50,513 bases of DNA from Caldifarciminota bacterium (GTDB taxonomy: Bacteria; Hydrothermota; Tepidihabitantia; SM23-42). The notes under the pieces are model-generated. The model searched no databases. It worked only from the letters and a program-made list of their open reading frames with translations, and was not told the origin of the DNA. Positions within the stretch are counted from its first letter, which is position 1. The number at the start of each line of letters is the position of its first letter. Both the position numbers and the translations under genes were made by a program. Positions 18,857-36,048 of the stretch are shown here, piece by piece. The DNA is taken from NCBI GenBank assembly GCA_027026255.1, contig JALVOT010000002.1, positions 1 to 50,513 of the forward strand. Reading direction: 5' to 3'.

Positions 18857-19282
18857 CTACAGGAAAATCTCTTTTTTCAGGGGGTTTGGTCCTTTTTCCT
18901 TGATATGTTCGGTGAACTGGGTAACCACATCACGATAACGGCCACCTTCAGATGCCGATACCCATGCCAATCTTACCCGGTCGGTTTCCAGTCCTAAGGT
19001 TTCAAAGATTTTATTGAAAAGGACGATCCTTCTTCTGGTATGGTAATTGCCATATTGATAATGGCAGTCACCCGGATGGCATCCCGCAACCAGAACCGCA
19101 TCAGAACCTCTTAATAACGCCGTCAGGATAAAGAGGGGGTCAACCCGGCTTGAACACATTACACGGATTGGAATTATCGAAGGCGGCATCTGCAGTCTTG
19201 ATACCCCAGCAAGGTCAGCCCCTGCATAGGAACACCAGTTGCATAAAAATCCAATGATGCGCGGGTTAAATGTTTGTTCCAT
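18857..19282 (-). CDS. MvhD-type iron-sulfur electron-transfer subunit (second copy)
   Basis: MvhD proteins pass electrons between a hydrogenase or dehydrogenase and HdrA through a 2Fe-2S cluster. The 141 residues have the family core: IGFLCNWCSYAGADLAG, RVMCSSRVDP and GCHPGDCHY, with five conserved cysteines, and WVSASEG near the end. It is last in the operon, overlapping the FrhB-like gene by one base. It is closely similar to the other copy at 24415-24837, with shared N-terminal and C-terminal PNPLKK blocks, so the operon contains two MvhD paralogues at opposite ends. No hydrogenase subunit is in the window. Confidence 0.88.
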   Translation of the reverse strand: MEQTFNPRIIGFLCNWCSYAGADLAGVSRLQMPPSIIPIRVMCSSRVDPLFILTALLRGSDAVLVAGCHPGDCHYQYGNYHTRRRIVLFNKIFETLGLETDRVRLAWVSASEGGRYRDVVTQFTEHIKEKGPNPLKKEIFL

Positions 19283-20382
19283 TATTCCTCTCCTATTTCT
19301 TCAAATTCATTAATCTTAAAGGTTAGGATGGGAATTTTTTCTTCAATGTTTCTGCCCGGAATATATTTAAATACTTCTTGTGCTGATTCAGCAACGCGTG
19401 TAAAAATTGTCCCCACGGGTATGGAGACCGGACAGACATCTGTACACATTCCACATCCAATACAACTGAGGCTTATATGAATCATCCTGCCGATATGATA
19501 GAAGATAGTATTGGCAGGCAACCTATAGGCGCCCTTTGTCTCGGTTTCTGCTTCATATGCCTTGGGACCGACTTCACTATCGGCAGAATCAAAATAGCAG
19601 AGATTGCAGTAACAGATTGGACAGGCTCGACCACAGGCATGGCAGTTGAGACATCGGCCGAAGATATCAATCAATCCCTTCATCCCCAGTTTATCGGGAG
19701 TAATATTTGCGAAGACTTCCGCCTTTTTCCGGGCTCTTTTTTCTTTAATTTTACTGATCTCTGTATCATTCAATTCTTCTTCAACTGTTTCCGCCTCAAA
19801 TCCCTGGACAAAGTCTTCTGCCTTTTCAGTTTTTATGAGAAATGTAGTATTATTCAGGTCATTTTTTTCTATAAGTGGTAGTATAATATCTGCATTTTCC
19901 GGGACAAAATTTTCACAGATCTGGCAGCATTGCCGCAAGCCCGGTAGAGTGAGTTCAGTTGCTGGGTTTTTCTGGTATGCCTCAATTTTTTCTTCAAAGC
20001 CATCCTTTGATTCTTTGATTGAAATTACACCTTTGCAGGTAAAACTGATGAATAGAATATTATCCGGCCTTGCCTGTTCCAGCTTTATCAATTCATAAAA
20101 TGCCCTCATTTCACAGGGTCTAAGCACCACGGCAATCGGTGATGTTAATGGTTCAAGCATCGTGAGTTTAGAAAGCATTTTGCCGGCACTGGAAGGCATT
20201 ATCGGTGTAGTAGGTGTTATTTTTTCTAAGAGATTTTTATCCGTAATAAGTCCATAGAAATAGTCCCGTGAATTATTTTTGCAAAGGACAAAGGCAGCAC
20301 TAATCTTATTCTGCTCAAATAGATATTTAAGCAGTGAGCCTATTGCATTATCAGGTGATTGTGAAAGTTTTAATGCCTTCAT
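19282..20382 (-). CDS. FrhB/FdhB-like iron-sulfur oxidoreductase (copy B)
   Basis: The 366-residue protein resembles the beta subunit family of F420-reducing hydrogenase and formate dehydrogenase: a flavin-binding N-terminal region with LRPCEMRAF and CCQICENF, then two 4Fe-4S motifs, CLNCHACGRACPICYCNLC (about residues 245-265) and CIGCGMCTDVCP (about 315). The electron partner (F420, NAD(P)H, ferredoxin or another protein) cannot be read from sequence. It is a paralogue of the preceding gene and overlaps it by 4 bases. With HdrA- and MvhD-like neighbours it probably forms a soluble multi-flavin, multi-FeS complex. Confidence 0.8.
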   Translation of the reverse strand: MKALKLSQSPDNAIGSLLKYLFEQNKISAAFVLCKNNSRDYFYGLITDKNLLEKITPTTPIMPSSAGKMLSKLTMLEPLTSPIAVVLRPCEMRAFYELIKLEQARPDNILFISFTCKGVISIKESKDGFEEKIEAYQKNPATELTLPGLRQCCQICENFVPENADIILPLIEKNDLNNTTFLIKTEKAEDFVQGFEAETVEEELNDTEISKIKEKRARKKAEVFANITPDKLGMKGLIDIFGRCLNCHACGRACPICYCNLCYFDSADSEVGPKAYEAETETKGAYRLPANTIFYHIGRMIHISLSCIGCGMCTDVCPVSIPVGTIFTRVAESAQEVFKYIPGRNIEEKIPILTFKINEFEEIGEE

Positions 20383-21497
20383 TTTTTCTCCCGGGTATCT
20401 TCATATTCATGGAGTTCGTCTTCTTTGAAGGTAAGGAGCGGTATCGGTTCTTCTAAATTCTTTCCGGGCAGGTAATCAAACATCTTCTGGACCTCATTGC
20501 CGATAAAACTGAATATCTGTCCAACCGGAACATCCATCGGGCAGCCGTCTTCACAGGAACCACAGCCTACGCAGGATAGTGCCATATGGTTCATCCGGCC
20601 GAGATGGAAGACCATTCGTTCCGGGGGAAATCTAATACCGCCTTTTTCTTTAGCTCTTGCTAAGTATTCCTCCGCTTCATGATGGGATTGTTCAGGGGAT
20701 TCAAAGAAACATTGGCGGCAATAACAGATTGGACATACCCTCATACAGTTGTGACAGTTTATACAGCCGGTAAAAAATTCTTCAAGATTTTCAATCCCCT
20801 TAGTCTGGTTGCTTAGAAGAGAAAACTTCCGGGAACGATTTTCTTTTTTCTTTTTTAAAAGTGTGTTAATACTATTTTCCCATTCAGTCAGGTCATCTTC
20901 TGCCCTGTAGCTTAATATATCAAGGATTTTTTGACTATTTTTACTTACTGGATAGATGAGCAGGTGATTTCTGTAAAATCCGATGTGCAGGTCTGCAGGG
21001 GTATTATAATGGCTGAAGTTGACACAAATGCTGCAATTTGGGCGAAGCCCGTCTTCCTGCCATGCCTTTATCTTTTCAATAATATTCTGATCGTATTTTT
21101 CCGGTGATTTGATATATTCGGCAGTGGGGAAGACTCCAGGGCAATCAAAACTAAAGAATGTCAGGTTTTGTAAAGTGATCTGTCTCAATTTCGCCAGTTC
21201 AACCGCCGCCCTTATTTCACAGGGGCGCATTATACATAATATACGCAGGTTAAGTTTACCCAGTCGGGTAAGGTCCTTTAGTGCCCGGGCACCCTGAACC
21301 GGCATAGTCGGTGGAAGGGGCGTAATAGATTCAAGAATTTCTTTATCTTTAATCAATAGATAGGCAAATGATTCCCGGGATGGGATCCTGACCGGCACAA
21401 ACACTGCATCAAAGAGTTTTTTTTGCACTAATGTTTTGATAATATTTTTTATTGCGGTATTAAGATCCGATTTTATTTCAATAATCTTACCTTTCAT
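20379..21497 (-). CDS. FrhB/FdhB-like iron-sulfur oxidoreductase (copy A)
   Basis: I start this protein at the ATG at 21497, which overlaps the stop of the HdrA-like gene as ATGA; a longer upstream extension would run inside that gene's ferredoxin region in another frame. The 372 residues mirror the downstream paralogue: MRPCEIRAAVELAKL, the NCSICVNFS pair, then CINCHNCMRVCPICYCRQC and CVGCGSCEDGCP cluster motifs. The shared C-terminal segment (LPGKNLEEPIPLLTF here) shows that the two arose by duplication. The sequences have diverged clearly, so the two copies probably have different partners or positions in the complex. Confidence 0.8.
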   Translation of the reverse strand: MKGKIIEIKSDLNTAIKNIIKTLVQKKLFDAVFVPVRIPSRESFAYLLIKDKEILESITPLPPTMPVQGARALKDLTRLGKLNLRILCIMRPCEIRAAVELAKLRQITLQNLTFFSFDCPGVFPTAEYIKSPEKYDQNIIEKIKAWQEDGLRPNCSICVNFSHYNTPADLHIGFYRNHLLIYPVSKNSQKILDILSYRAEDDLTEWENSINTLLKKKKENRSRKFSLLSNQTKGIENLEEFFTGCINCHNCMRVCPICYCRQCFFESPEQSHHEAEEYLARAKEKGGIRFPPERMVFHLGRMNHMALSCVGCGSCEDGCPMDVPVGQIFSFIGNEVQKMFDYLPGKNLEEPIPLLTFKEDELHEYEDTREKK

Positions 21498-23137
21498 TTC
21501 AACATTGCCCTTTCTTCCTGATAAATTTCCTGATTCGTAAAGTGACGGTGTCGTGCCGCACCAGATGGACAGGCTGCTGCACAATTTCCACAGCCGCGGC
21601 AGAGGACCTCATTGACTACTGAAATGTGTTTACTCTCATCAATGGTTAATGCACCGTAGGTACAGACCCGGACACAGACTCCGCAGCCAACACAGATTGA
21701 ATCAGCAATTTCACAGGTCTTTGCCTCAACCTGGAGGCGTCTTCCAGGAATTAATGATGAAAGGGTCCTGCCTGCAGATGCCCCGGCCTGGATGACGGCA
21801 TCATTAAGGTCCTGTGGACCCTGACAACCACCTGCAATAGAGATACCTTCAGTTATCGTGGAGACCGGCGCCAATTTTATATGTTCTTCTTTAAAGAATC
21901 CATAGTCATCAAGCGGGATATTAAGAAGATTGGCAAAATATTGAGTATCCTTACCAGGAACAAGGCCGGTGGATAGAATAATCATATCAACGGAAAGGCT
22001 TTGTTTGATTTCATCTTCTGAGATGTAATCAATCTTGTGGTCACCGATTTCAATATTTTTGTAGCGGATGAATTCAACCCCCTGCTCTTTTGTCTCTTTA
22101 TAGAATTGGTCATATTCTTTGCCGGGCAGGCATAGTTCTTTATAAAATTGAAAGACCTTTGTATTTTTTGATTTTTCTTTAATCAGTCGGGCAAGTTTCA
22201 TCGAATTTGCACAACAGATTTTTGAACAGTAGCCGAATTTTTCACGACCAACACAATGGACAATTGCAATGGTCTGGGGCAGGTTTTCTTTATTTATTAC
22301 TGAGTTTTCAAATTCATCTGCGGTAAAAACATTTTCAAATTTTTTATAGCCAAAATTGGGGAGTTCCGCGGGAACAAATGTTTCACCCCCGATTGTGAGG
22401 ATTATTGAACCAATATTCAGTTTGACCTCTTTTTTGTCCTCGGTTTCAATCCGGGCAATAAAGTTTCCAAAGAAGCCTAAAATCTCTTTTATCTTGCTCT
22501 TTTGAAATACCTTTATTTCGGGGTGTGATTTTATTTCTTTAATCTTCTTTTGTAAGAGTTCTCTGGCACTTTGCATTCCGGGATAAAGGGACTGAAGACG
22601 GTTGAGGACACCACCCAGTTCGTTCTTTTCAACGATATAGATGTTTCTGTTTTTCTGTGCCGTTCTTAATGCCGTTTCAATGCCGGTAATGCCCGCACCG
22701 ATGATGAGGACATCAGGGCTGCATTCAATCTCTTTTTGTTTTAACGGAGTATGATAATTTATGCGATTGATCGCCGCCCGAATTAATCGAATTGCCTTTT
22801 GGGTTGCCAGTTCTTTATCTGGAGTCATCCAGGCACACTGTTCGCGAATATTTACCATCTGGAAAAGATATGGGTTCAATCCTGCCCGGGTCATTACTTC
22901 CATAAATGTATTCTCGTGTTGTTTTGGAGAGCAGGCAGCAATTACAATCCGTTCAAATCCATTTTTTTTGATGCTTTCGGCAAGAAATTTTTTTCCATCC
23001 TCAGAGCAGAGCAGACGGTGTCGTTCAATAAGGGCAACCTTTTTATCACCTTTTATTACCTCGGTAACTTTATCTAAGTCAACCGCCTCGGCAATATTGG
23101 GGCCACATTCGCAGAGAAAAAGTCCGACCTTTGTCAT
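21494..23137 (-). CDS. HdrA-like FAD iron-sulfur protein (long form)
   Basis: HdrA is the flavin centre of heterodisulfide-reductase-type complexes and can bifurcate electrons. This 547-residue protein has the HdrA N-terminal block (VGLFLCECGPNI), a CSPKQHE segment, an FAD-binding GAGITGIETA loop near residue 150 and a C-terminal pair of 4Fe-4S motifs (CVGCGVCVRVC and CRGCGNCAAACPSGA, about residues 485-525). It lacks the FP..(D/E)CATCxLAPK cysteine block, which is instead in the neighbouring short form. The two may therefore act as complementary halves or as a heterodimer. It sits 1 base after the short form. Confidence 0.87.
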   Translation of the reverse strand: MTKVGLFLCECGPNIAEAVDLDKVTEVIKGDKKVALIERHRLLCSEDGKKFLAESIKKNGFERIVIAACSPKQHENTFMEVMTRAGLNPYLFQMVNIREQCAWMTPDKELATQKAIRLIRAAINRINYHTPLKQKEIECSPDVLIIGAGITGIETALRTAQKNRNIYIVEKNELGGVLNRLQSLYPGMQSARELLQKKIKEIKSHPEIKVFQKSKIKEILGFFGNFIARIETEDKKEVKLNIGSIILTIGGETFVPAELPNFGYKKFENVFTADEFENSVINKENLPQTIAIVHCVGREKFGYCSKICCANSMKLARLIKEKSKNTKVFQFYKELCLPGKEYDQFYKETKEQGVEFIRYKNIEIGDHKIDYISEDEIKQSLSVDMIILSTGLVPGKDTQYFANLLNIPLDDYGFFKEEHIKLAPVSTITEGISIAGGCQGPQDLNDAVIQAGASAGRTLSSLIPGRRLQVEAKTCEIADSICVGCGVCVRVCTYGALTIDESKHISVVNEVLCRGCGNCAAACPSGAARHRHFTNQEIYQEERAMLK

Positions 23138-23138
23138 A

Positions 23139-24422
23139 TCAATCTTCAGTTATATTGAGGGCCTGGCCTGCTGCATCCTGAGCCTGAACAACGGCCTCCT
23201 GCATAAAATTCGGTTCTCTGGCACAGCCGGCAATATATATACCAGCCCGGTTTGATTCCACTGGATTGAATGGTTGGGTCTTTAGAAAGCCGAATTGGTC
23301 AAGTTCGATGTTGAGTATCCGGGCGATATTTCTGGTTTCAGGATGTGGCTCTATTGGTGGGGCGAGGACCACCATATCAACTGCAATGGAACCATTTTTA
23401 TTATTACCATTTTGATAATTTATCTGCAGACCGGAGTCAGCCTCTATGATTTCAATATTTTCGGCACGGATTGAATTAATCCCCTTTTTTTGAATCTCTT
23501 TGTAGAAATGTTCGTTTTCTTTTCCCGGGATGGAGAGTTCTTTATAAAATTGATAGACTTTTACCCCGGGTATTTTATCGAAGGCATAATGGGCGAATTT
23601 TGTAAGATAGAGACAGCAGACTTGAGAACAGTATCCTTTTTCCTTCCTGCCCACACAATGAATTAAGGCGATTGAATCAGGTGGGGAGCCATCTTTGGTC
23701 TGGATTATTCCTGTAGTTGGTCCATTTGATGCCCTGAGTCTTTCAAATTCAAAGGCAGATAATACATTCTTAAATTTTTTGTAGCCGTAATTGGTATATT
23801 GACTGGCATCGCCGAGTTTAAATCCTGTCGCAACGATAATGGCACCCACATTGACAGTAATTTCTCTGTCTTTGTCATCATATAATATTGCATCGAACAT
23901 ACAGGACTGTTTACAGGCCTGACAATCTTCACCCTTCTTCCGTAAGCAGTAATTCATATCGATAGCCGGAGCATTGGGCAGGGCACCGGCACAGGCTATG
24001 TATATTGCCTTGCGTTTTGATAGTCCTTCTTCAAAATTATTATCTATTTCTACAGGGCAGGGTTCAAAACAGGCACCACAACCGATACAATTTTCTAAAC
24101 TCACATATCTTGCCTGTTTTTTTATTCGGGCCGTAAAATTTCCTGCTTCGCCCTGAACCTCTTGTAGTTCAGACAGGGTGAGAAGTTCAATATTCTTATT
24201 TTCTAAAACATCTGACTGTTTTGGGGCAAGCATACAGGTTGCGCATTCCATTAAGGGAAATACCTCTTCGGATTTGATTGCCGAGCCGCCAAAATATGGT
24301 TCTTTTTCAAGCAAATATACCTTTCGGCCAGCCCGGGCACATAATAGACTGGCTTCAATTCCTGCCAGACCCGCACCAATTATTAAAATATCTTTATTCT
24401 TTGTTTCCATATATTTATTCAA
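23139..24422 (-). CDS. HdrA-like FAD iron-sulfur protein (short form)
   Basis: The 427-residue protein begins almost directly with the FAD motif IIGAGLAGIEASLLCARAG, so it lacks the usual HdrA N-terminal domain. It has the HdrA-specific FPLMECATCMLAPK block, the 4Fe-4S motif CIGCGACFEPCP near residue 115 and a second Cys group (CQACKQSCMF). The C-terminal ferredoxin domain of the long form is absent. It overlaps the upstream MvhD gene by 8 bases. A start at an internal ATG (24410) is possible; I see no strong ribosome binding site for either. Confidence 0.85.
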   Translation of the reverse strand: MNKYMETKNKDILIIGAGLAGIEASLLCARAGRKVYLLEKEPYFGGSAIKSEEVFPLMECATCMLAPKQSDVLENKNIELLTLSELQEVQGEAGNFTARIKKQARYVSLENCIGCGACFEPCPVEIDNNFEEGLSKRKAIYIACAGALPNAPAIDMNYCLRKKGEDCQACKQSCMFDAILYDDKDREITVNVGAIIVATGFKLGDASQYTNYGYKKFKNVLSAFEFERLRASNGPTTGIIQTKDGSPPDSIALIHCVGRKEKGYCSQVCCLYLTKFAHYAFDKIPGVKVYQFYKELSIPGKENEHFYKEIQKKGINSIRAENIEIIEADSGLQINYQNGNNKNGSIAVDMVVLAPPIEPHPETRNIARILNIELDQFGFLKTQPFNPVESNRAGIYIAGCAREPNFMQEAVVQAQDAAGQALNITED

Positions 24423-24837
24423 AAAATGGTTTCTTCTTTAGAGGATTGGGCCCTGCCTCTTTTATGAATTTTGCAAATTCCTGTGTTATTTCTGAAAACC
24501 TTTGACCTTCAGATGCCGATATCCAGGAAAGGCGTAATCTTTTGGGTTCGATATCAAAGGTTTGAAGAATTTTTATTAGGAGTGCAAGTCTTCTTCGTGC
24601 ATAATAATTTCCGGTCTGATAATGACAGTCGCCGGGATGGCATCCAGCAACCAGAACCCCGTCTGCACCCTGAAAATAGGCATTCAGGATGAAGACGGGG
24701 TCAACACGACTTGAACACATTACCCTGATTGTCGTAAGATTTCCAGGAACTTCCAGTTTGCTGTTTCCGGCCAAGTCGGCTGCGGCATATGAACACCAAT
24801 TGCAGAGGAAGCCGATAATAGTAGGTTCAGTTTGCAT
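24415..24837 (-). CDS. MvhD-type iron-sulfur electron-transfer subunit (first copy)
   Basis: The 140-residue protein carries the same cysteine pattern as its paralogue at 18857-19282: CNWCSYAAADLAG, RVMCSSRVDP and AGCHPGDCHYQTGNY. In methanogens this subunit links a hydrogenase or formate dehydrogenase to HdrA. Here it precedes the short HdrA-like gene, matching known mvhD-hdrA adjacency. The hydrogenase-like partner is not encoded nearby, so the FrhB-like proteins may replace it as electron input. Confidence 0.88.
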   Translation of the reverse strand: MQTEPTIIGFLCNWCSYAAADLAGNSKLEVPGNLTTIRVMCSSRVDPVFILNAYFQGADGVLVAGCHPGDCHYQTGNYYARRRLALLIKILQTFDIEPKRLRLSWISASEGQRFSEITQEFAKFIKEAGPNPLKKKPFFE

Positions 24838-24851
24838 TATGGTTATTTTTG

Positions 24852-25073
24852 TTAAAACTGAATCTGGGCATTAAACTTACCACCTTCATCCCGACAGAAG
24901 AGTAGTGTTTTTCCGGTTTTTTTACACCATGCCTCAACATCCCGGGGGAATGAGGGACAGTCAGCAACAATCTCAAGGATATCCCCGGGTTGAAGTTTTG
25001 GTGCTTCGATAGCAATCTTTAATACTGGTTGGGGGCATTTTAGTCCCAGGACATCGAGTTTGTGAACAGCCAT
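24852..25073 (-). CDS. TusA/SirA-family sulfur carrier protein
   Basis: This small protein (73 residues) has the TusA fold signature: LDVLGLKCPQPVLK near the N-terminus, with the CPxP motif whose Cys carries persulfide sulfur. I chose the ATG at 25073 because AAAGGAG ends 8 bases upstream; the ATG at 25079 would be only 2 bases from it. It is the second gene after the DsrE-like gene. Linked dsrE-tusA genes beside Hdr-like genes are known from sulfur oxidisers, which supports sulfur trafficking, but the direction of metabolism here is not shown. Confidence 0.88.
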   Translation of the reverse strand: MAVHKLDVLGLKCPQPVLKIAIEAPKLQPGDILEIVADCPSFPRDVEAWCKKTGKTLLFCRDEGGKFNAQIQF

Positions 25074-25086
25074 TTTCATTACTCCT

Positions 25087-25440
25087 TTAAAATGCAAATG
25101 TTATCTGCGCACCCTGGATATCTGTCATAAATGTTGTCGCACCGACGAGTTCGATATCGTCACGCAGTTCTTCTTTTTTCACTCCTTTTGCCTCAAGCAC
25201 CAGTTCACAGAGATAAAATTTTCCACCGAGATTTTTAATGCCGTTCCACATTTCAATTGCATCTGGATATCCCTTTGCCTTAAGATTTTCAATCACTCCG
25301 GGTTTCATAAGATCGGCAGCCCCGGGGGTGAAGAATATATAGACTGTATCACCAGCTGCTGCTGCTGATGAACCCAACACCAGGGTTGGAATTATATTTT
25401 TATTTTCTGAACCATTGCAGATTAAAGCAACCTTTGCCAT
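25087..25440 (-). CDS. DsrE-family protein, probable sulfur transfer
   Basis: The 117-residue protein has the DsrE/DsrF-like fold style: an N-terminal strand (MAKVALICNG), a Gly/Ala-rich turn (SSAAAAGDTVYIFFTPG) and a conserved Cys in FYLCELV that would take up sulfur. I start at the ATG at 25440, which has GAAAGGAGTG upstream; a longer in-frame start at 25497 would lie inside the promoter. It is the first gene of the electron-transfer operon. It probably exchanges sulfur with the TusA-like protein encoded next. Confidence 0.82.
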   Translation of the reverse strand: MAKVALICNGSENKNIIPTLVLGSSAAAAGDTVYIFFTPGAADLMKPGVIENLKAKGYPDAIEMWNGIKNLGGKFYLCELVLEAKGVKKEELRDDIELVGATTFMTDIQGAQITFAF

Positions 25441-25476
25441 TTTACACTCCTTTCTTTTTTCTGGAAAAATTATATA

Positions 25477-25504
25477 ATTATACATACCGGAGAACATTTG
25501 TCAA
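25477..25504 (-). promoter_or_regulatory. Consensus promoter of the DsrE-TusA-Hdr operon (leadered)
   Basis: TTGACA at 25504-25499 and TATAAT at 25482-25477, with a 16-base spacer. The start site would be near 25470, giving a leader of about 30 bases with a good Shine-Dalgarno site (GAAAGGAGTG). This contrasts with the leaderless promoters that use the same boxes. Confidence 0.83.
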
Positions 25505-25813: not shown

Positions 25814-26125
25814 TTATTTCTTTTTTAGCGTTTGCTCAATCTTAATCTTGATTAATCCGATATTGGCATCCTTATGACAGATTGCAAAGAAGATTCCCTC
25901 TTCGGTTTCTCTGATAAAAAATACACTTTTCTGAGTATAGAAGATTGCCGATGCCTTTTCTACATCAAGGCTTTTTCTGATTCTATTGACAATCCGAGCT
26001 GCAGTGGCGCCAAATTTTTCTGCATCATAGCCGATGGTGAATTGGGCATCAATTATAAAACCGTCATTACTGACCAGACCGGCTCCAAATACTTTTGATA
26101 ATTTTATAATACTGTTGAGTTTCAT
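25814..26125 (-). CDS. Roadblock/LC7-domain protein
   Basis: A single 103-residue roadblock/LC7-type domain, recognised by GAGLVSNDGFIIDAQF at the start and the central alternating hydrophobic pattern. Bacterial members (for example MglB) act as regulators of Ras-like GTPases or as dimerisation platforms. It overlaps the preceding gene by 4 bases and is the last gene of the chemosensory operon. The preceding protein ends with another roadblock-like domain, so the two may form a heterodimer. No MglA-type GTPase is in the window. Confidence 0.75.
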   Translation of the reverse strand: MKLNSIIKLSKVFGAGLVSNDGFIIDAQFTIGYDAEKFGATAARIVNRIRKSLDVEKASAIFYTQKSVFFIRETEEGIFFAICHKDANIGLIKIKIEQTLKKK

Positions 26126-27459
26126 TCTAATATCTCCTTTATCTCTTCAATTATCTTGCGGGCATAAACAAAGATAAGCCCGGGTTTGGTTTTAGGTTCG
26201 GTTATCACAGTGAGCAGGGATTCACCGGTAGCTACCACGCATATCGTTTCATCAGGTTTTTCGATGATGCCGCGTTCCAGACTATCCTTTTGCAGGAATT
26301 TAAAGGATTCATCCGCATCAGAAATAACTGATGCAATCAGAGCGCATAGTTCTTCAATGTCCGGTCGGTCATAGTAGTTTTGAATCAAAAGACCATCCCG
26401 GGAGCAGATAAATGCACCTTTTACCGTTTTGATATCGAGCAAACGCCTCATCGGTGCATCCAATGCCTCGAGCGGGGTTTCTTGCTTTTCAGCCTTTTCT
26501 GCCCAACCAATTTCCGGCAGAACCTCTTCTTTTGTTTTTCCTACAACTTCAGGTTTTTCTTTCTCGTCTGCAGGGACAGCGACTTCAGCTTTTTCAGGTG
26601 TGACTGTTTCGGGTTTTTCTTCTGCTTTTTCTTCAGTAGGTTTTTCTTCTTCAGGTTCGGGTTTTACTTCTTCGGGTTTTTCTTCTATAGGTGTTTCTTC
26701 GGCTTTTATTTCTTCTGTCACTTTTTCTTCGGTGGGGACAGTAACTTCAGTCGGTTCAGGTTTGGTTGGCGTGAGTTTTTCTTCTTCTTTCTTTTCTGCA
26801 GGGACAGTGACTTCGGTCTTTTCAGGTGTGACTGTTTCGGGTTTTTCTTCTGCTTTTTCTTCCGTGGGTTTTTCTTCTTCAGGTTCGGGTTTTACTTCTT
26901 CGGATTTTTCTTCTATAGGTGTTTCTTCGGCTTTTATTTCTTCTGTTACTTTTTCTTCGGTGGGGATAGTAACTTCAGTCGGTTCAGGTGTGGTTGGTGT
27001 GAGTTTTTCTTCTTCTTTTTCTTCTGCAGGGACAGTGATTTCGGTCTTTTCAGGTGTGACCGTTTCGGGTTTTTCTTCTACCCGAGCCGCTTTTAACATT
27101 TCAATCCCCTGTTTTGCCTCACTATTTTCTGGATTGATTTTGAGGGTTGCTTCATAATATTTCAGGGCATTCTCATTGTCTCCGAGTTTTTTATAGCAAT
27201 GTCCAAGATAAAGATTTGTATTTTCACTGTCTGGTGCTTCTGCATATACTTCCTGGAGTATTTTTAATGCCTCATTTATATCGCCATTCATATAATAGGC
27301 CCGACCAAGAATTATCTTTGCAAGTGTATAACCCGGGTTACGCACCAGGCCATCTTTCAGTATTAATATCGCCTCATCTATCATTCCAGAGGAGAGATAG
27401 ACATCAGCCAGGGTTGCAAAGATTAATGCCCCAGAGTCTATCTTTAATTCATCAGCCAT
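26122..27459 (-). CDS. TPR protein with Pro/Glu repeats and C-terminal roadblock-like domain
   Basis: The 445-residue protein has three parts: about three TPR units at the N-terminus (1-120), a long acidic Pro/Glu/Lys/Thr linker (about 125-320) built from two near-identical 76-residue repeats plus part of a third, and a roadblock/LC7-like domain (about 335-445, including KGAFICSRDGLLIQNYY). A GGAG site precedes the ATG. It lies 15 bases after the large TPR gene. The plan suggests a scaffold: TPRs for protein contact, a stiff extended linker and a dimerising or GTPase-contacting end. I do not know a characterised protein with this exact architecture. Confidence 0.75.
   Translation of the reverse strand: MADELKIDSGALIFATLADVYLSSGMIDEAILILKDGLVRNPGYTLAKIILGRAYYMNGDINEALKILQEVYAEAPDSENTNLYLGHCYKKLGDNENALKYYEATLKINPENSEAKQGIEMLKAARVEEKPETVTPEKTEITVPAEEKEEEKLTPTTPEPTEVTIPTEEKVTEEIKAEETPIEEKSEEVKPEPEEEKPTEEKAEEKPETVTPEKTEVTVPAEKKEEEKLTPTKPEPTEVTVPTEEKVTEEIKAEETPIEEKPEEVKPEPEEEKPTEEKAEEKPETVTPEKAEVAVPADEKEKPEVVGKTKEEVLPEIGWAEKAEKQETPLEALDAPMRRLLDIKTVKGAFICSRDGLLIQNYYDRPDIEELCALIASVISDADESFKFLQKDSLERGIIEKPDETICVVATGESLLTVITEPKTKPGLIFVYARKIIEEIKEILE
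26602..27080 (-). repeat. In-gene tandem repeat, 228-bp unit
   Basis: The same DNA landmark recurs at 26602, 26830 and 27058, giving an exact period of 228 bp (76 codons). The units are nearly identical, with only a few differences (for example PTTPEP against PTKPEP), indicating recent duplication or ongoing homogenisation. The third unit is partial. The encoded stretch is low-complexity Pro/Glu/Lys/Thr. Confidence 0.9.
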
Positions 27460-27474
27460 ATTAAATCCTCCATT

Positions 27475-29862
27475 CTACATCTCTTTCTTTAAAAACTCAG
27501 CAAGTTCAACCGTTATCTTGAGACAGTGTCTTATCTTCTCGGCAAGTTCCTCATCTGGACTCAGAAGTAGTGCCTTTTTCCATTTATCACAAGCAGATTC
27601 GAATTGTCCACGCTGCACCAGGATAAGCCCGAGATGGTAATATGGTAATGGTTTTGAGGAATCTATATCAATAGCCTGCTCAAGATGATGATTTGCTTTT
27701 TCAAATTCGTTCTTTTCCAGATAGTATATTCCAGCTGTGACATTGAATTCATAATTGTCCGAATAACGGTCTTTTAAGAAATTCAGGTAATTTTCAGCCT
27801 TATCGAGTTCCTTTTTCTTGATGGCAATTTTCAAAAGGCCGAGGTTTGCATTTATGTCATCAGGTGTTTTCTCATAGAGCTTTTCAAATGATGCCCGGGC
27901 AGATTCAAGGTCTCCCAAATCAAATGAAATTTTAGCGATCTTATTCAAAATTTCAGGATTATCTCTTTCAATCTCTAAAAGTTTCTGGTAGACTTCATTG
28001 GCATCATTTAATCGACCCGTGTGTTCCAGAATATCGGCTTTTGTCTTGAGAATTTTTTTATCTTCAGGATGATTGTTTAGATAGGATTGTAAGACCTCAA
28101 GGGCGTCATCTATATATCCATATTGATAAAGCGCCTCGGCCTTCAGGCTTACTGCTTCATTCCAATCGGGTTTAATCCTCAATGCCATCTCCAATTTTTC
28201 TAATGCCAGGTCATATTCTTTTGACACCAAATAGTTTTTTGCTTCATTAAGATAATCCTGGGGATCAGGGGTTTGGGGTTGTGTAAAGACTTCTCCAAAA
28301 CTGACTTCGGTCTTTTCTTCTTCGGCTGTCATCGGGATATAATATGGTCCAAACTCTGTAAGTTCTGGGGCAAGAAATAGCCGGTATCGTTTCTTTTCGT
28401 AGTTGGGTTCAATTTCCATACCTTTTCTTATATATTCCAGCCCTTCTTCATAATTGCCAAGTTTTGTCAGGATAAAACCTATATTATAGTAGGCACCGGC
28501 ATGACCCGGAGAAAACTCCAGTGCTTTTCTAAATGCCGTCAATGCCTCTTCATCCTTTCCCATCTCCATTAGCGCTATACCCCGACCAAAACATTCATCC
28601 CCATTTTCTTCGGTAAATGTCTTTAATGCCTGTTCATAGTTTTGTTTTTCTAAATAATACATTCCGAGATTGAATCGGGCGTCAGCAGAGCCGGATTTGA
28701 TCGCCTTATCAAACCGGGCAAGGGCATCATCAATCTTATTCTGTTTCATTAAAACTACGGCGAGGTTATTTATCGCCCCCAAATGATTTTTGTTTAGGGC
28801 AAGCGCCTTTTCAAAGAACTCTTCAGCTTTCTCAAACTGTTCCTGTATTAGGTAGACAACCCCAAGGGCATTAGCAATGGGTGCCGAATTGAAATCCTTC
28901 TCAAATGCCTTTTGTAAATACTCAAGTGCCTCATCAAAATTCTTAAGGAAGATGTCAACCTGGCCCAGGGCATAAAATAGGTCTGGATGTTCTTTGTCTA
29001 TTTTCAGGCACTCCTCAAGTTCCCTGCGCGCTTCATTAAAGAGTCCTTTATTTCGATATGAGATTCCCATATTGTAGTGGACCTGATACTCGTTGCTCAT
29101 GGGTTTCGGTACGCCAAGTTGTTCTTTCAGGAACTCCCAGTGTCCCTTATGCTTTTCAATATTAATGGGAAGGTTGGGTTCAAACTGTGCCAGAGCCGGA
29201 TTGAGCTCAATTGCCTTTCTGACTTCCTGAAGGCTTTCTTCAATCTTGCCTTTTTCACCTAAGGCAAAGCCGAGCATAAAATGTCCTTCGGCTGAGGATG
29301 GATCAAGCAGCAGGGATTCCTGAAAATTTTTGATCGCCAGATCAACTACCCCTTTGTTAAAATAGATTTCCCCGAGCACGCGATATACATCAGGTGAGAT
29401 TTTAATTTCTAATGCCTGTTTAATCTCTTCTAATGCGTCATCATATTTGCCAAGCAGTTTTAATGTTGTGCCAAGACCATAATGGGCTTCAAATGAACCG
29501 GGATTGATATCGAGCACCTTGCGATAAAAGATTATCGCCTGAGAATGACGATTCAATTTTCTATAGGTATCAGCAAGTTCCAATGTCTTCTGTTCATCGT
29601 ATGGCTCCTTATCGAGTATGCGGGCAAGTTTTTCGACATGTTGTTCTAATCGTCCGGTTTTTTTAAGTATTATATCGAGATTATTCCTTGCCAGCACAAA
29701 ATTGGGGTCAATTTTAATTGCCTTTTCCAATTCCTCGATTGCCTCATCATAAAGTCCCTTGTTGTAATAAACAATGGCAAGGTTGTTATGTGCACCCGGA
29801 TCATTATCCGGTATGCGTTCTGCAAAACTTTTTAAAATTTTATGTTCTTCAGTAGATATCAT
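27475..29862 (-). CDS. Large tetratricopeptide repeat protein
   Basis: The 795-residue protein consists almost entirely of TPR units, with repeated signatures such as NNLAIVYYNKGLYDEAIEEL and AYYNIGFILTKLGNYEEGLEY; I estimate close to twenty. A less regular break occurs near residues 500-530. No signal peptide or membrane segment is visible, so it is cytosolic. The start overlaps the cheC stop as ATGA. It probably acts as a docking scaffold for the Che or roadblock proteins, by context only. Confidence 0.85.
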   Translation of the reverse strand: MISTEEHKILKSFAERIPDNDPGAHNNLAIVYYNKGLYDEAIEELEKAIKIDPNFVLARNNLDIILKKTGRLEQHVEKLARILDKEPYDEQKTLELADTYRKLNRHSQAIIFYRKVLDINPGSFEAHYGLGTTLKLLGKYDDALEEIKQALEIKISPDVYRVLGEIYFNKGVVDLAIKNFQESLLLDPSSAEGHFMLGFALGEKGKIEESLQEVRKAIELNPALAQFEPNLPINIEKHKGHWEFLKEQLGVPKPMSNEYQVHYNMGISYRNKGLFNEARRELEECLKIDKEHPDLFYALGQVDIFLKNFDEALEYLQKAFEKDFNSAPIANALGVVYLIQEQFEKAEEFFEKALALNKNHLGAINNLAVVLMKQNKIDDALARFDKAIKSGSADARFNLGMYYLEKQNYEQALKTFTEENGDECFGRGIALMEMGKDEEALTAFRKALEFSPGHAGAYYNIGFILTKLGNYEEGLEYIRKGMEIEPNYEKKRYRLFLAPELTEFGPYYIPMTAEEEKTEVSFGEVFTQPQTPDPQDYLNEAKNYLVSKEYDLALEKLEMALRIKPDWNEAVSLKAEALYQYGYIDDALEVLQSYLNNHPEDKKILKTKADILEHTGRLNDANEVYQKLLEIERDNPEILNKIAKISFDLGDLESARASFEKLYEKTPDDINANLGLLKIAIKKKELDKAENYLNFLKDRYSDNYEFNVTAGIYYLEKNEFEKANHHLEQAIDIDSSKPLPYYHLGLILVQRGQFESACDKWKKALLLSPDEELAEKIRHCLKITVELAEFLKKEM

Positions 29863-30473
29863 TCTGTTAAATTTAATTTTTTAAATATAATTTCTAAACT
29901 TGCACTATCAGGAAGGAGGATGAAGTAGGCGCGTAAAGGACGTTCTGAATCGGTGAAGTCAAATTCGGTTTCGACACAGAATATAAAATCTTTATCCTGA
30001 CCAAACTCAATTATTACACTGGAAAGGACTGCACCTACCATATCAACAATCATTCCGGGAACCGAGGGTAGGACAAGAAGCCCCAAAAGTTCACCGAGGG
30101 CATTCATATATGAGCAGGAGAGGATATTGGACACCTCTTTTAAAAGGGATTCCTGCAGTTCTTTAGGTTCTACCCGGTCCTGGAATATTAAAAGGTCGGC
30201 AAGTGTCTGGGCGTCTTCATAGGGATAAAGGAGTAAGGTGCGTCCGGTCAGGTCACCAAGAAAATAGAGCAAGACCGAAGCGACGATATCGTCGGGGTCA
30301 GCGATTTTCATAATTACATCGTTCAGGGTGCCGGTCAGAATCTTGGGAACTCGAACCATCACCTTTTTACCCAGTAGTTGAGATAATGAGGTAGCAGCGT
30401 GTCCACTTCCGATATTAGCCACCTCTTTTAATGCATCCATTTGAATGGCAGAGAGGCGTTTTGCATCAATCAT
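29859..30473 (-). CDS. cheC: CheC-type CheY-P phosphatase
   Basis: CheC-family proteins remove phosphate from CheY-P. The 204-residue protein has both copies of the ExxN-x22-P active-site signature: Glu17/Asn20/Pro43 and Glu113/Asn116/Pro139, so both phosphatase sites look intact. CheX and FliY are related, but the length and two sites fit CheC. The gene overlaps cheA by 4 bases. No CheD partner is in the window. It supplies the signal-termination step of the cluster. Confidence 0.9.
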   Translation of the reverse strand: MIDAKRLSAIQMDALKEVANIGSGHAATSLSQLLGKKVMVRVPKILTGTLNDVIMKIADPDDIVASVLLYFLGDLTGRTLLLYPYEDAQTLADLLIFQDRVEPKELQESLLKEVSNILSCSYMNALGELLGLLVLPSVPGMIVDMVGAVLSSVIIEFGQDKDFIFCVETEFDFTDSERPLRAYFILLPDSASLEIIFKKLNLTE

Positions 30474-31975
30474 TCAAACCCCCTTGGGTCTAAAATCATA
30501 ATTGGTTTTCCATCTGCATAGATTGAACAACCAGAATAATATGGTGTAGAAACCAAGTCATCAAGTTTTTTTACAACAATTTCTTCTTCATCAATAATCT
30601 CATCGGTTACAAAACCTCGTTTCCGTTCCTGGTATTGTAGGACGATTATAGATTTTTTTGATTTACCACTTGGACAATTTAGATAATCTGCGGGTCTTAT
30701 CAGGGGTAGAATCTCGTTTCGTAGTGGATAGAGCTCACGATGATACACCGTTTGGAAATTTTTCTCCTCGGCATAAAATGTTTCCTGAACATAGTTTAAG
30801 GGAATGGCGAATCTATTATCATTTAGTTTGAATATCATCGCCCGAACAATTACGAGGCTTAATGGCAGATCAAGCGTGAAACAGGTTCCTTCACCCTTTT
30901 TTGTATTCAATTCGAATCTGCCTCCAAGTTTATCAACAATCGCACTCACCACATCCAGACCGATACCGCGGCCTGAAATTTTGGAGACTTTATCTCTTGT
31001 TGAAAAGTCAGGGTGAATGATGATTCTTAAAATATCCTTGTTTTGAAGATTTCGCGCCTCGACTTCGGCAATGATATTTTTTTCAAGTGCCTTTTTCTTT
31101 ATTTCCTCAAGACTGATTCCCTTGCCGTTATCAGCAACCGAGATTCTGATTCGTTCCCTTTCCCGGACTGCGGTCAAGGTAATCTTGCCTTCTTTTTCAA
31201 TTCCGTGGTCTAAGGCATTGCGTAGAAGATGAATCAATGGTTCTTTGAGTACATCTATGATTGAGCGGTCAACCTCAATATCTGCACCAATGATTTCAAA
31301 GTCAATCTTTTTCCCCTGTCGTTTTGCTTCATCCCTTAAAAGACGCGGAAAGAAATCGAATACCGTAGATAAAGGTAACATCCGCAGTCGCATTACCTCA
31401 TCCCGTAATGATGATATAAAACGCGCTGATGTCTCGACAACAGTGGTTAAATCATTATTGTCGATCATCTGTTTCAGATGGAGAAGGCGTGCCCTTTGAA
31501 TCATTAACTCATTGGTGAGGTTGAAAAGCTGGTCAAGTTTTTCAGTCTTTATCCGGATTTCACTGATGGTACCTGCCTGACGTCTTGCGCGCATTATCGC
31601 AACCATCTCGCCCTGTTCTATTTTTTTAATGGAATCAAGGATTTTATCGGGAGACGGGAATTCTTGTTTTTCCTTTAAGGCACGCACAAAATCAGTAAGA
31701 TAATCTACGATTGTAAACAGAAAATCTATTAAGTCTGGATTTATTTCGCCTTTTTCTTTGGGAGTGGAGAGCAAGTCCTCAAGACGATGGGTAATCTGTC
31801 CAAGTGTTTCATAACCCATTGCCTGTGCCATACCTTTAATTGTATGGAAGATTCGGAAGAGTTCGAGGATTGATTCACGATTCTGGTTATCCTTTTCAAG
31901 TTTGAGCAAATTTTTGTTTAAAGCCTCGATATAGACCCGGACCTCACTGATAAATAACTCTAAGTAGCTTTCCAT
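30470..31975 (-). CDS. cheA: Chemosensory histidine kinase CheA, short form without P2
   Basis: The 501-residue kinase has an Hpt (P1) domain with phospho-acceptor His44 in FHTIKG, a short linker (about 110-138), the P3 dimerisation helices (about 139-200), the P4 ATPase domain with N-box HLLRNALDHGIE, ADNGKGI and GRGIGLD, and a CheW-like P5 domain. Most CheA proteins are 630-700 residues and have a P2 domain that docks CheY; no room for it exists here. CheY must therefore be reached without P2 docking. It shares one base with the cheY stop. Confidence 0.95.
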   Translation of the reverse strand: MESYLELFISEVRVYIEALNKNLLKLEKDNQNRESILELFRIFHTIKGMAQAMGYETLGQITHRLEDLLSTPKEKGEINPDLIDFLFTIVDYLTDFVRALKEKQEFPSPDKILDSIKKIEQGEMVAIMRARRQAGTISEIRIKTEKLDQLFNLTNELMIQRARLLHLKQMIDNNDLTTVVETSARFISSLRDEVMRLRMLPLSTVFDFFPRLLRDEAKRQGKKIDFEIIGADIEVDRSIIDVLKEPLIHLLRNALDHGIEKEGKITLTAVRERERIRISVADNGKGISLEEIKKKALEKNIIAEVEARNLQNKDILRIIIHPDFSTRDKVSKISGRGIGLDVVSAIVDKLGGRFELNTKKGEGTCFTLDLPLSLVIVRAMIFKLNDNRFAIPLNYVQETFYAEEKNFQTVYHRELYPLRNEILPLIRPADYLNCPSGKSKKSIIVLQYQERKRGFVTDEIIDEEEIVVKKLDDLVSTPYYSGCSIYADGKPIMILDPRGFE

Positions 31976-32334
31976 TATTTCTTTACCAATCGTTCAATTG
32001 ACTCCAGTACCCTTGACGGTTGGAAAGGTTTAACTACATAATCGATCGCACCGGCCTGGACCGCTTCGAGGACCAGGGCCTGCTGTCCCATTGCTGATAC
32101 CATAAGAATCTTGGCATCCGGGTCGAGTTTTTTAATTTCCTTAACCGCTTCAATTCCACTCATATCAGGCATAATGATATCCATTGTTACGAGGTCAGGT
32201 TTCAACTTCTGATAGTGTTCAACTGCTTCTTTACCGGTCGAGGCTTCACCACAGATAGTATGACCGCCCTTTTCTAAAATATCGCTTAGCATACGACGCA
32301 TAAACATTGCATCGTCAACGACCAATATCCTCAT
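31975..32334 (-). CDS. cheY: CheY-like single-domain response regulator
   Basis: The 119-residue receiver domain has the acidic pair Asp7/Asp8, phospho-acceptor Asp52 in VTMDIIMPDMSG, the switch Ser80 and Lys102 in VVKPFQ. No output domain is attached, so it signals by binding a partner. It overlaps cheW by 4 bases. In flagellated bacteria the partner is FliM, but no flagellar gene is in the window, and the target may be one of the TPR/roadblock proteins at the end of the operon. Confidence 0.93.
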   Translation of the reverse strand: MRILVVDDAMFMRRMLSDILEKGGHTICGEASTGKEAVEHYQKLKPDLVTMDIIMPDMSGIEAVKEIKKLDPDAKILMVSAMGQQALVLEAVQAGAIDYVVKPFQPSRVLESIERLVKK

Positions 32335-32756
32335 TTATCCTCCTTTGATAGGGTCTTTACCAGGTCCAAAATAAGGATTGGTTTTTCTCCTGTTTCACAA
32401 ACTCCATAAAAAAACCTTTTTTCTTTCTTTGTTGCAAGAAATTCTGAACGGCGGTTAATATCTTTTTGCTGAATTTTTTTCGTGCCGAATAATTCATCCA
32501 CCTTTAAACCAGCCAGACGGCCTTTTTCTTCAATTATCAATAGCACATTTCCATTTTCTTCTCCTTTAAGGCCGAGCCTCTTTTTTAAGGAGATAACGGG
32601 GATGATTTCACCACGGACATTAACCAATCCCAAAAGAAAATTTGGTGTCCCCGGAACCATTACCGGTTCGGTTGATTCTGTTACCTCACGGACATTTTTA
32701 ATATCAACCCCGATATGCTCGTCTCCAATTCTAAAAACAATAATGGTATCCATCAT
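32331..32756 (-). CDS. cheW: CheW-like coupling protein
   Basis: CheW links chemoreceptors to CheA. The protein of about 141 residues has the family core TIIVFRIGDEHIGVDI, the central NFLLGLVNVRGEIIPVISL and a final GILDLxKT-like strand. I start at the ATG at 32756, which overlaps the receptor gene stop as ATGA; in-frame ATGs 9 bases upstream and 3 bases downstream are alternatives. The tight overlap with the receptor suggests coupled translation. Confidence 0.93.
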   Translation of the reverse strand: MMDTIIVFRIGDEHIGVDIKNVREVTESTEPVMVPGTPNFLLGLVNVRGEIIPVISLKKRLGLKGEENGNVLLIIEEKGRLAGLKVDELFGTKKIQQKDINRRSEFLATKKEKRFFYGVCETGEKPILILDLVKTLSKEDK

Positions 32757-35700
32757 TCGACCCATAGATTTCTAAACCGAATAATACCGAAGGGGTCAAC
32801 ATTAAAACCGCCAATCCGTTTATTCTTTACATAGGATTCAACACCATGTGAGATAAAGACCCAGGGTGCATCTTCAACGATTATCTGCTCCGCCTTTTGA
32901 TATAATCTTATTCGTTGTTTGATATTCGGCTCGGAACGGGCTTTTTCAATCATCTCGTCAACCCGGGGATTTTTGTAGAATGATGTATTACCCGGACTTC
33001 CGAAACTGCGGGAATGGAAAAGTGGAAAGAGAAAATTGTCCGGGTCACCGTTATCTGAAAGCCAGCTTTTTGTGCATAAAAGGCTTTTTCCTTTATATCC
33101 TTTTTCCAAAAATTCTTTCCAGGGCATCGGATTTATGACAACGTTGATACCGATTTTTTTAAAACATTTCTTTAAGTATTCGGCACGTTGGATTAAAGTT
33201 GCGCTGTCTCGAATATCAAGTTCATATTCCTGGTTTAGACCACTGCCAAATCCTGCTTCGCGCATCAACTCTCGCGCACGATCCAGGTTGTATGAATAGC
33301 CTTTAATCTCAGGATTGAATGAACTTAATCCCGGAGGGAAGATACCCCGGGCCGGCACCGCCTGACCTTTTAAGATATTACGGCAATAATATTCTCTATC
33401 CAGGGTATAATTTAACGCCTGCCGCACCCTCTTATCTTTGAACGGAGTATCCATTTGAACATTGATTCCCAAATAATAAGTTGAGAGCACAGAGCCGGAT
33501 ACAATCTCATCCTCAGCGAATTCTTCTATCATATTGGATGTTAGCTGCATTATATCTATCTTTCCCCGGCGAAAGAGTTCTATAGCTTCATTGTCATCTT
33601 TAATGATTTTTACAATAATCTGGTCAATAGGTGGACGTCCATCAAAAAAATCTTCAAAATCCTCAAAGATAAGCTCCTTTCCTTTGTTCCATTCTATTAA
33701 TCGGAAAGGTCCGGCACCAATCGGTGATTCAGGGTTGAAATTATCCGGGACGACATCACAGACACCGGAGGCAAGATTAGCCAGAAAGGGCAGGTAAGGA
33801 TATTTTAGTATAAATCTAATGCGATAGTCATCAACCACTATCATATCATCAATATAATCAATGAAAGCGAAATTGGGACCCTTTCTAATCCGCCTTATTG
33901 TATCTAAAACATTCTTTGCTGTCAAGGTCTGTCCATTATGAAATTTTACATTTCTTTTGAGGTAAAAATCCCATTGTGTTCCATCTTTGGATACGGTGAA
34001 ATATTCGGCAATCGCCGGGATTAAATTATTTGTGGAATCAAAGGTTAAAAGACCGGTGAAGGTTTGTTCAATAACCTCATGGCTTCGGGCATCAGTTTTT
34101 ATTGCCGGGTCTAAGGTGATTGGTTCAACCGACATTCGAAATACAATTGTTTTATATTCCTTTTTTAGGATTAAAATATCTTTGTCATAATTTTTAAGCA
34201 TCGTTAAAATTTTTTCTGATGTGCGCGAACTGGATTCCGCCGCTTTAAAATATTGGGGAAATTTTTTTTCAATCTTGCTGTATTCTTCTTTGATAAGGCG
34301 AAATTTGGCACCAAGATCATTGCATTGTTCAATCATCTTTGAAGTTGATTCTACCATTTCGCCGATTAAGGTATCAAGATTTTCTAATAAATTTTTATTT
34401 TCAACGAATGATGTAATAGCCGATTTCAAAAAAGAGATTCCCTGTTCAACATCACTAAGACTGCGGAGCAGGAGATCAGAGAGATGTTGAAAGTTTTTTA
34501 TCATTTCATTCTTTATTTCGGCAATCTCCGATACAAATTCGGCGGTTTTCTGGGAAAGACTCTTTATCTCTTTTGTTACTATACCCAGGGATGGGGCATA
34601 TTCGCCGCCCCGGGCACTTTCGATGCCGGCATAAAGACCCAGGATGCGAGAGCGTTCCATTATTCTTTTTAAATCGCTGAGAGGTAAATCAATTTCATAT
34701 ACTATGGTCTTCATTGAATTGATCTTCAGGTTGAGAGAGGTTAGTATTTTCAGGATATTCTCATAGAAATCTTTCCCCCGGGAAAGAACATCAGTGCCAA
34801 GTTTATTTGTTTTCAACCAATTCTTTAACTCCTCGGCAATATCCTTTGTAATTTTGAGCAGATGATTGGTTTCTGATACAAATTGCAAGATGGGTCGTTC
34901 AGAGAATTCACGGCCGATTTTGGAGACATTCTGGATAACCGTTGTTTCGGTGCTTTTATCGTAACTCTTTCGGGTGTTGGTCAATGCAATCCTCAGGGAA
35001 TTATAGATATGGGCGAAACTTGAATTATCCTTGACCTCAAGCAGGGCTTTGCGGATATTGTTAATATGGCGGAAGATTGTGCCCAGGCTGATTTCTAATA
35101 CTGCAGAAAACCGGGCGGTGTCATATATTTCATCAATGCGTTGAGATAACTTCTGATTTTCTTTTATTAGATGGTTATGCAATGCCTTCTGTTCAGCAAC
35201 CGAATCGGAGATTGTTTTGATATTTGCCTCAACACCCGGAATGAGTACCAGAAGTTCATCAGTGATATCGGAAAATTCTTTATTAATCTGTTTTAGTTCA
35301 AAGACTAATTTACTAACGCCGAGGAGGTCATGTCCCAGATTTACTACTTCCTGGATAATCTTCTTTGAAACATCAGGTATTAAATTTGTTGGAATCCTTG
35401 AACTCCGCACCAGGTTTGTCATTTCCCGGGCAATTACTTCAAATCCCCGACCTCTTTTCCCGGCATGAAAGGCAGTGATACCTGCATTCCTTGATGCGAC
35501 TTCAATGGATTCAGATACGGTATTTATATTTTTTATTGTATCATCGAGTTGTACACCCTCTTTGTGTATCTGGTCAAAGGTTTGGGCAACCATCTGCAGG
35601 TCCTCACTGATACGATTTGAAATCTTGAGTGATTGGTCCACCCGGGTGATTGTCTGTTCAAGTATTTCTTTCATTTTTTTGATTTGCTGATCAAAGACCG

Positions 35701-35899
35701 CGGCTCCTTCAAATTCAAGTTCAACTGTAGCAGATAGGTTGTCAAAACGGTGGCTTATTTCAGAGAGGGCCTCGGTTCCATGCTGAAGGCTATTCTCTAT
35801 TTCCCGGCCGGTTTCAAGTAAATTCTTGAAACTTGCATTATATTCCTCAAGCGGTGTCCTTAAGTGACTGATAACCCTTTCTCTTAAATTCTCAGACAT
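32753..35899 (-). CDS. Soluble double-MCP receptor fused to a family-5 peptide-binding domain
   Basis: This 1048-residue protein has no signal peptide or membrane helix. Long coiled coils contain two degenerate MCP hairpin tips: residues about 131-167 (ending AGKRGRGFEVIAREMTNLV) and about 415-454 (YAGIESARGGEYAPSLGIV). Both resemble the canonical NAAIEAARAGExGRGFAVVA tip but lack several of its residues. From about residue 585 the protein is a full SBP_bac_5 (OppA/DppA-like) domain, with EPITLDPA, the DGTQWDFYLKRNVKFHNG block, GAGPFRL and the usual C-terminal half. A binding domain that is normally extracytoplasmic is thus joined to an apparently cytoplasmic receptor. I start at the ATG at 35899 because a perfect -35 box lies inside the longer frame to 35962. 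Confidence 0.9.
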   Translation of the reverse strand: MSENLRERVISHLRTPLEEYNASFKNLLETGREIENSLQHGTEALSEISHRFDNLSATVELEFEGAAVFDQQIKKMKEILEQTITRVDQSLKISNRISEDLQMVAQTFDQIHKEGVQLDDTIKNINTVSESIEVASRNAGITAFHAGKRGRGFEVIAREMTNLVRSSRIPTNLIPDVSKKIIQEVVNLGHDLLGVSKLVFELKQINKEFSDITDELLVLIPGVEANIKTISDSVAEQKALHNHLIKENQKLSQRIDEIYDTARFSAVLEISLGTIFRHINNIRKALLEVKDNSSFAHIYNSLRIALTNTRKSYDKSTETTVIQNVSKIGREFSERPILQFVSETNHLLKITKDIAEELKNWLKTNKLGTDVLSRGKDFYENILKILTSLNLKINSMKTIVYEIDLPLSDLKRIMERSRILGLYAGIESARGGEYAPSLGIVTKEIKSLSQKTAEFVSEIAEIKNEMIKNFQHLSDLLLRSLSDVEQGISFLKSAITSFVENKNLLENLDTLIGEMVESTSKMIEQCNDLGAKFRLIKEEYSKIEKKFPQYFKAAESSSRTSEKILTMLKNYDKDILILKKEYKTIVFRMSVEPITLDPAIKTDARSHEVIEQTFTGLLTFDSTNNLIPAIAEYFTVSKDGTQWDFYLKRNVKFHNGQTLTAKNVLDTIRRIRKGPNFAFIDYIDDMIVVDDYRIRFILKYPYLPFLANLASGVCDVVPDNFNPESPIGAGPFRLIEWNKGKELIFEDFEDFFDGRPPIDQIIVKIIKDDNEAIELFRRGKIDIMQLTSNMIEEFAEDEIVSGSVLSTYYLGINVQMDTPFKDKRVRQALNYTLDREYYCRNILKGQAVPARGIFPPGLSSFNPEIKGYSYNLDRARELMREAGFGSGLNQEYELDIRDSATLIQRAEYLKKCFKKIGINVVINPMPWKEFLEKGYKGKSLLCTKSWLSDNGDPDNFLFPLFHSRSFGSPGNTSFYKNPRVDEMIEKARSEPNIKQRIRLYQKAEQIIVEDAPWVFISHGVESYVKNKRIGGFNVDPFGIIRFRNLWVE

Positions 35900-35907
35900 A
35901 TATTTTA

Positions 35908-35935
35908 ATTGTATTAAATTTTTCGAGAATGTCAA
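35908..35935 (-). promoter_or_regulatory. Promoter of the chemosensory operon, predicted leaderless
   Basis: TTGACA at 35935-35930, a 16-base spacer and TACAAT at 35913-35908 (5 of 6). Eight bases separate it from the ATG at 35899. It lies inside the longer in-frame extension of the receptor gene, which supports the shorter protein start. Confidence 0.78.
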
Positions 35936-36048
35936 GAAGGAAGTGTAAATGTTGACCGACATTGTTGCCAGTTTAGATATAAAAGGGATTTAAGAAAAAT
36001 GCTTGAAATAATAGGTTAACGGGTCTAAACGGGGTTGTAAGGAGCAGT

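Follow-up and report, generated by a model that had tools for sequence, protein, structure and literature searches.

MglC is a paralogue of MglB. RomR of Myxococcus combines a receiver domain with a C-terminal MglC-binding helix, and its partners include roadblock proteins of the MglA system (PMC12719032). The protein reported here resembles RomR in outline, that is, a folded N-terminal domain, a Pro-rich disordered linker and a Glu-rich part; however, it carries a TPR and a roadblock domain (PMC12719032). With the RomY/MglB roadblock GAP complex (PMC9481161), the locus has in common two adjoining roadblock proteins and a possible co-regulator of an MglA-type GTPase; unlike RomY/MglB, its roadblock domain is fused to a TPR domain and does not adjoin mglA. 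SgmX and Bd2492 are TPR effectors of MglA (PMC7519303, PMC3983030). They too are TPR proteins that may be connected with type IV pili, but the extracts of these two papers describe no roadblock domain in them and their neighbours are different. Finally, tandem repeats in intrinsically disordered regions form a general class, for which a census exists (PMC7230257), and the array described below is like that class in its low complexity, its disorder-promoting residues and the origin of its copies by duplication; unlike the class as treated there, the orthologous tether has been expanded repeatedly with differing units between two conserved domains. In the open-licence literature (TPR/roadblock/MglA and WOR-3 chemotaxis), no description of a TPR-roadblock fusion in the WOR-3 group was found, and nothing close to repeat-number variation in such linkers.

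The window, i.e., the whole stretch of 50,513 nt that was analysed, belongs to the genome called G000 below. The host gene and its parts are as follows:
26122..27459, minus strand: gene of the TPR - acidic disordered linker - roadblock protein, 445 aa (ORF; Pfam)
27091..27459, minus strand: TPR domain, residues 1-123 (Pfam; AlphaFold helices; relatives)
26482..27090, minus strand: acidic Glu/Lys/Pro/Thr-rich linker, residues 124-326, 203 aa (bounded by the domain alignments, which are local, so that the ends may be a few residues out)
26125..26481, minus strand: roadblock/LC7 domain, residues 327-445 (Pfam; PDB sequence match)

In the 445-aa protein, Pfam TPR_19 was matched at residues 57-117 (1.6e-18) and Robl_LC7 at residues 338-420 (3.9e-7, 30.1 bits, above the curated cut-off of 23). 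The TPR domain is 63-88% identical to its counterparts in 23 relatives. An AlphaFold model built on a two-sequence alignment gave confident TPR helices (block pLDDT up to 97) and neither helix nor strand for residues 131-320 (pLDDT 30-38), while its roadblock part, mostly below 50, was unusable; the roadblock assignment is based on Pfam and on the match to the PDB roadblock chain 7f8m (1.6e-6). The linker carries a net charge of -38, and in the charge-hydropathy plot it is disordered and both domains are not. The first-pass annotation had read it as a Pro/Glu/Lys linker, with which the measured composition agrees (33% Glu, 15% Lys, 14% Pro and 14% Thr).

Only one array in the window reached a TRF score of at least 50, with a period of 228, 2.3 copies, 94% matches and a score of 934 (26557-27079); the three other TRF rows (periods 15, 21 and 114) all lie inside it. 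A repeat search gave the extent as 26554-27079, which is divided into three copies:
27010..27079, minus strand: partial repeat copy, 70 nt, first in gene order (repeat search; second match at 87%)
26782..27009, minus strand: full repeat copy 1, 228 nt = 76 codons (TRF, repeat search, self-alignment)
26554..26781, minus strand: full repeat copy 2, 228 nt = 76 codons (TRF, repeat search), 94% identical to copy 1

Copies 1 and 2 have 14 differences in 228 bases, which fall in 13 of the 76 codons and cause 8 amino-acid changes, and the reading frame is preserved across the copies. Shifted by 228, the sequence mismatches itself at 18 of 298 positions, with a longest exact run of 44 nt, and the linker aligns to itself with a score of 253, whereas 1000 codon shuffles reached 34 at most. 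A nearly identical 228-bp tandem repeat, as first noticed from the letters alone at 26602-27080, is thus real according to TRF, the repeat search and the codon shuffles; its end was placed rightly, but its start lies about 48 bases further out, at 26554. Within the array there is an older and weaker layer of 70-nt segments spaced 63, 99 and 66 nt apart at 61-71% identity, and a weaker period-162 match within the linker scores 34.5. The array is an in-frame tandem repeat in a disordered linker: its copies exceed chance, the region is disordered and of low complexity, and copy number differs between species. A DNA-level search of the genome found the 228-bp unit at no second site, which rules out a dispersed repeat. 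Since no 45-mer occurs twice in the array, the present copies should be separable with normal reads, though assembly could have merged one more, identical copy. The antisense open frames over the array (26380-27096 and 26429-27157, plus strand) are taken as shadow frames of a strand rich in Glu/Lys/Pro codons.

As for its age, dS between the copies is 0.132 (6 synonymous differences), far below the dS between G000 and G001, a genome of the same genus, for the TPR domain (0.97) and the roadblock domain (2.08). The 228-nt duplication is therefore younger than the split of G000 and G001, barring gene conversion, which could give the copies a falsely young look. Relative to dS, the dN of the copies (0.046) is higher than that of the domains.

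The closest named record of the protein comes from candidate division WOR-3 bacterium 4484_100. With one genome per species, several of them incomplete, the protein was found at 1e-12 in 24 of the 27 genomes of the order, G000 included, and had no match in G011, G013 and G021. Class-wide, 24 of 65 genomes matched at 1e-20, all within the order of the window, and at that threshold none of the 38 genomes outside this order did; among viral contigs there was a single TPR-only match at 28% identity. Linkers could be read in 23 intact proteins, among them that of the window; a 24th (G004) is split into halves at two contig ends, and both were read. The intact linkers are 67-203 aa long, the longest being that of the window, and all are net-negative and Glu/Pro-rich. 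With the two halves of G004 taken separately, 23 of 25 linkers are disordered by charge-hydropathy. It had been asked whether the repeat number is constant among relatives: it is not, for both number and unit differ between species, and linker length varies threefold.

Repeat strength was judged for each linker of the 24 genomes against 20 codon shuffles. Strong repeats occur in five (self-alignment 55-283 against shuffle maxima of 15.5-28.5), with units of 228 nt in G000, 54 nt in G001, 51 nt in G004, 114 and 78 nt in G009, and 84 and 42 nt in G022; weak repeats, above all 20 shuffles, occur in G003, G012, G018 and G020, and in the remaining 15 genomes the self-alignment does not rise above the shuffles. 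The units differ between lineages in length and sequence. Even within the genus of G000, the 54-nt unit of G001 stands in place of the 228-bp unit, and the 228-bp duplication is private to the lineage of the window. The array of G004 is near-perfect and is present in both contig-end halves, with about 7 copies of the unit at the end of one contig and about 4.5 at that of the second (L017, L031). In a tree of the TPR and roadblock columns with the linker left out (24 rows), the distribution of the five strong cases implies no fewer than three changes. G009 is repeated and its sisters G008 and G010 are not.

Such expansion is also found in another protein of the same genome. A second TPR protein, of 514 aa, has a 39-nt array of 10.3 copies in its own E/P/K linker (G000:C7, L002, about 123375), and its gene lies directly upstream of a pilT-family gene at G000:C7:125315; no such obvious array was seen by eye in its counterparts in two genomes of genus g10. 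The C-terminal end FKSFQ-WLSGLLK is common to this protein and its g10 counterparts. As a background sample, non-overlapping arrays scoring at least 200 were counted in 400 kb of the genome on a fixed grid. There were four, two of them without a convincing gene, so that arrays of this strength come to about one per 100 kb in this genome. Besides the 39-nt array, the sample held a 204-nt array in an 854-aa frame (a putative propeller-type protein), a 27-nt array in short frames only, and a 279-nt array of 2.5 copies (94%, score 1209, L084 16858-17532) under no open frame.

The gene stands in a conserved neighbourhood, of which the window holds the following:
25814..26125, minus strand: small roadblock-like protein, 103 aa (Robl_LC7 4.7e-4, 20.3 bits, below the cut-off of 23; conserved neighbour)
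27475..29862, minus strand: TPR protein of 795 aa (TPR795), conserved upstream neighbour (ORF; Pfam; synteny)
29859..35962, minus strand: chemosensory genes CheC, CheA, CheY, CheW and MCP-SBP_bac_5 (Pfam, except CheY, which was named from sequence; synteny)

The small roadblock-like gene overlaps the stop codon of the TPR-roadblock gene. Outside genus g10, the order MCP-SBP/CheW/CheY/CheA/CheC/TPR795/TPR-roadblock/roadblock is kept where contigs permit, with G003, in which only the two roadblock genes were seen, as an exception. The 1069-aa protein that heads the che cluster in many relatives (32753-35962, minus strand) carries an SBP_bac_5 oligopeptide-binding domain after its MCP signalling domain. 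Hydropathy shows no transmembrane segment in it (best 19-residue mean 1.12), i.e., it is a soluble receptor whose binding domain is of the periplasmic type. Downstream (18857-25497, minus strand) lie putative heterodisulfide-reductase/ferredoxin-type and DsrE-like genes, named from sequence.

CheA was found at 1e-20 in 17 of the 27 genomes, and in none of the eight of g10. The TPR-roadblock gene does not occur solely together with a CheA system, for seven of these eight CheA-less genomes retain it; at the four g10 loci mapped (L057-L060), TPR795 and the small roadblock gene still flank it and the che genes are absent. The pilT family is present in all 27 genomes, and in 11 of 24 (G003, G004, G008, G014-G020 and G022) the distance from one of its members to the TPR-roadblock gene is no more than 8 kb. 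In G000 there is none within 8 kb, in the single-contig genomes G005 and G006 pilT is truly far, and contig ends restrict the view in several others. FliG_C was missing in 26 of 27 genomes and matched at 1.4e-4 in one. A homologue of MglA (PDB MglA, 5e-84) with its own roadblock partner directly upstream is located on contig C8 of G000, and the TPR-roadblock gene, on contig C2, is not adjacent to it. PF00025 matches all 27 genomes, but is unspecific, since 12 of 14 control genomes also match.

Taken together, the array is probably a young, lineage-specific in-frame tandem duplication in a disordered tether, which arose by ordinary drift in a protein with a proposed adaptor role. Since doublings recur independently in the relatives, that of the window looks like linker drift and not like a tuning switch. 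The acidic tether would join a TPR docking domain to the roadblock domain. Selection would keep its make-up (acidic, Pro-rich, unfolded and about 65-200 aa), while its sequence and repeat unit would be under little constraint and be replaced through duplication and deletion, as has happened several times with different units; the tether may need only length and flexibility. By the scaling law of denatured chains, a tether of 127 residues would have a mean end-to-end distance of roughly 9 nm and one of 203 residues roughly 11 nm, so that the duplication is expected to matter only modestly. The protein may be an adaptor that holds its roadblock domain near a TPR-bound partner, and the roadblock domain may pair with its 103-aa roadblock-like neighbour, act on the MglA GTPase, or both. 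The partner would most likely be the type IV pilus machinery, and the Che cluster, in genomes that have it, would provide input. This MglA/type IV pilus role is proposed by analogy with SgmX, RomY/MglB and RomR, and it appears likelier than chemosensory tuning because FliG is missing in nearly all genomes, PilT is present in all, and MglA with a roadblock partner is encoded elsewhere in G000. The adaptor part is opposed by the distance of mglA from the gene and by the proximity of pilT in fewer than half of the genomes, G000 not among them.

Among the alternatives, an unlikely one is multivalency, in which every repeat would contribute a short EVTVPAEE-like motif for docking, so that duplication would increase the number of binding sites. 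Five such motifs are present in G000, and the units of G000 and G001 have an EVxVP-like stretch in common by eye. The pattern [VI]x[VIL]P occurs in 19 of 25 linkers (the halves of G004 apart), whereas 300 shuffles gave 12.5 on average and 18 at most. This moderate excess speaks against drift, but the pattern was picked after looking and the relatives are not independent. A profile of the G000 motif beats shuffles (p<0.05) in only 4 of 24 other linkers as a 12-mer and 3 of 24 as an 8-mer; a conserved docking motif was rejected on this mostly negative test.

It is also unlikely that the protein is a WOR-3-specific polarity adaptor connecting a soluble Che system that senses peptides with type IV pili under MglA control, with the tether length re-tuned by repeated tandem expansion as lineages lost their Che input.

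That the array is an adaptive ruler is improbable. In that case, the repeat number would be selected because it determines how far the TPR and roadblock domains can reach from each other and hence the gain of a chemosensory output. Most relatives show synteny with CheW/CheY/CheA/CheC, which speaks for it, as do the threefold range of linker length and the shorter linkers of CheA-less g10 (median 81, n=7) compared with 15 CheA-bearing genomes (median 125). This difference in length, and the fact that G000 has the longest tether, count against drift and could mean functional length control. However, the contrast between g10 and the CheA-bearing genomes (Mann-Whitney p 0.016) is uncorrected for descent, its ranges overlap (67-127 against 73-203), and it depends on the seven genomes of one clade. 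Tuning of the chemosensory output, as the first-pass annotation had suggested, is weakened because a genus without CheA keeps the gene and the locus lies close to pilT in 11 of 24 genomes; moreover, the unit is not conserved between lineages, and the 514-aa TPR protein shows a similar expansion.

An assembly artefact, whether a false duplication or a collapsed longer array, is highly improbable. In its favour, the assembly of G004 breaks within its 51-nt array and leaves the gene on two contig ends, and none of the six single-contig genomes (G005, G006 and G015-G018) has a strong array; against it, the copies of G000 carry their 14 differences, have no 45-mer in common and keep the frame.

To return to drift in a permissive tether, the locus offers a small and clean example, within one bacterial order, of a disordered tether whose make-up is conserved and whose repeat unit is repeatedly replaced between conserved domains. 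More interesting than the repeat is the module to which it belongs, namely the TPR-roadblock protein, the Che cluster, MglA and type IV pili without FliG. If the proposed role is true, MglA-type control of pili would exist far from the myxobacteria in which it has been studied.
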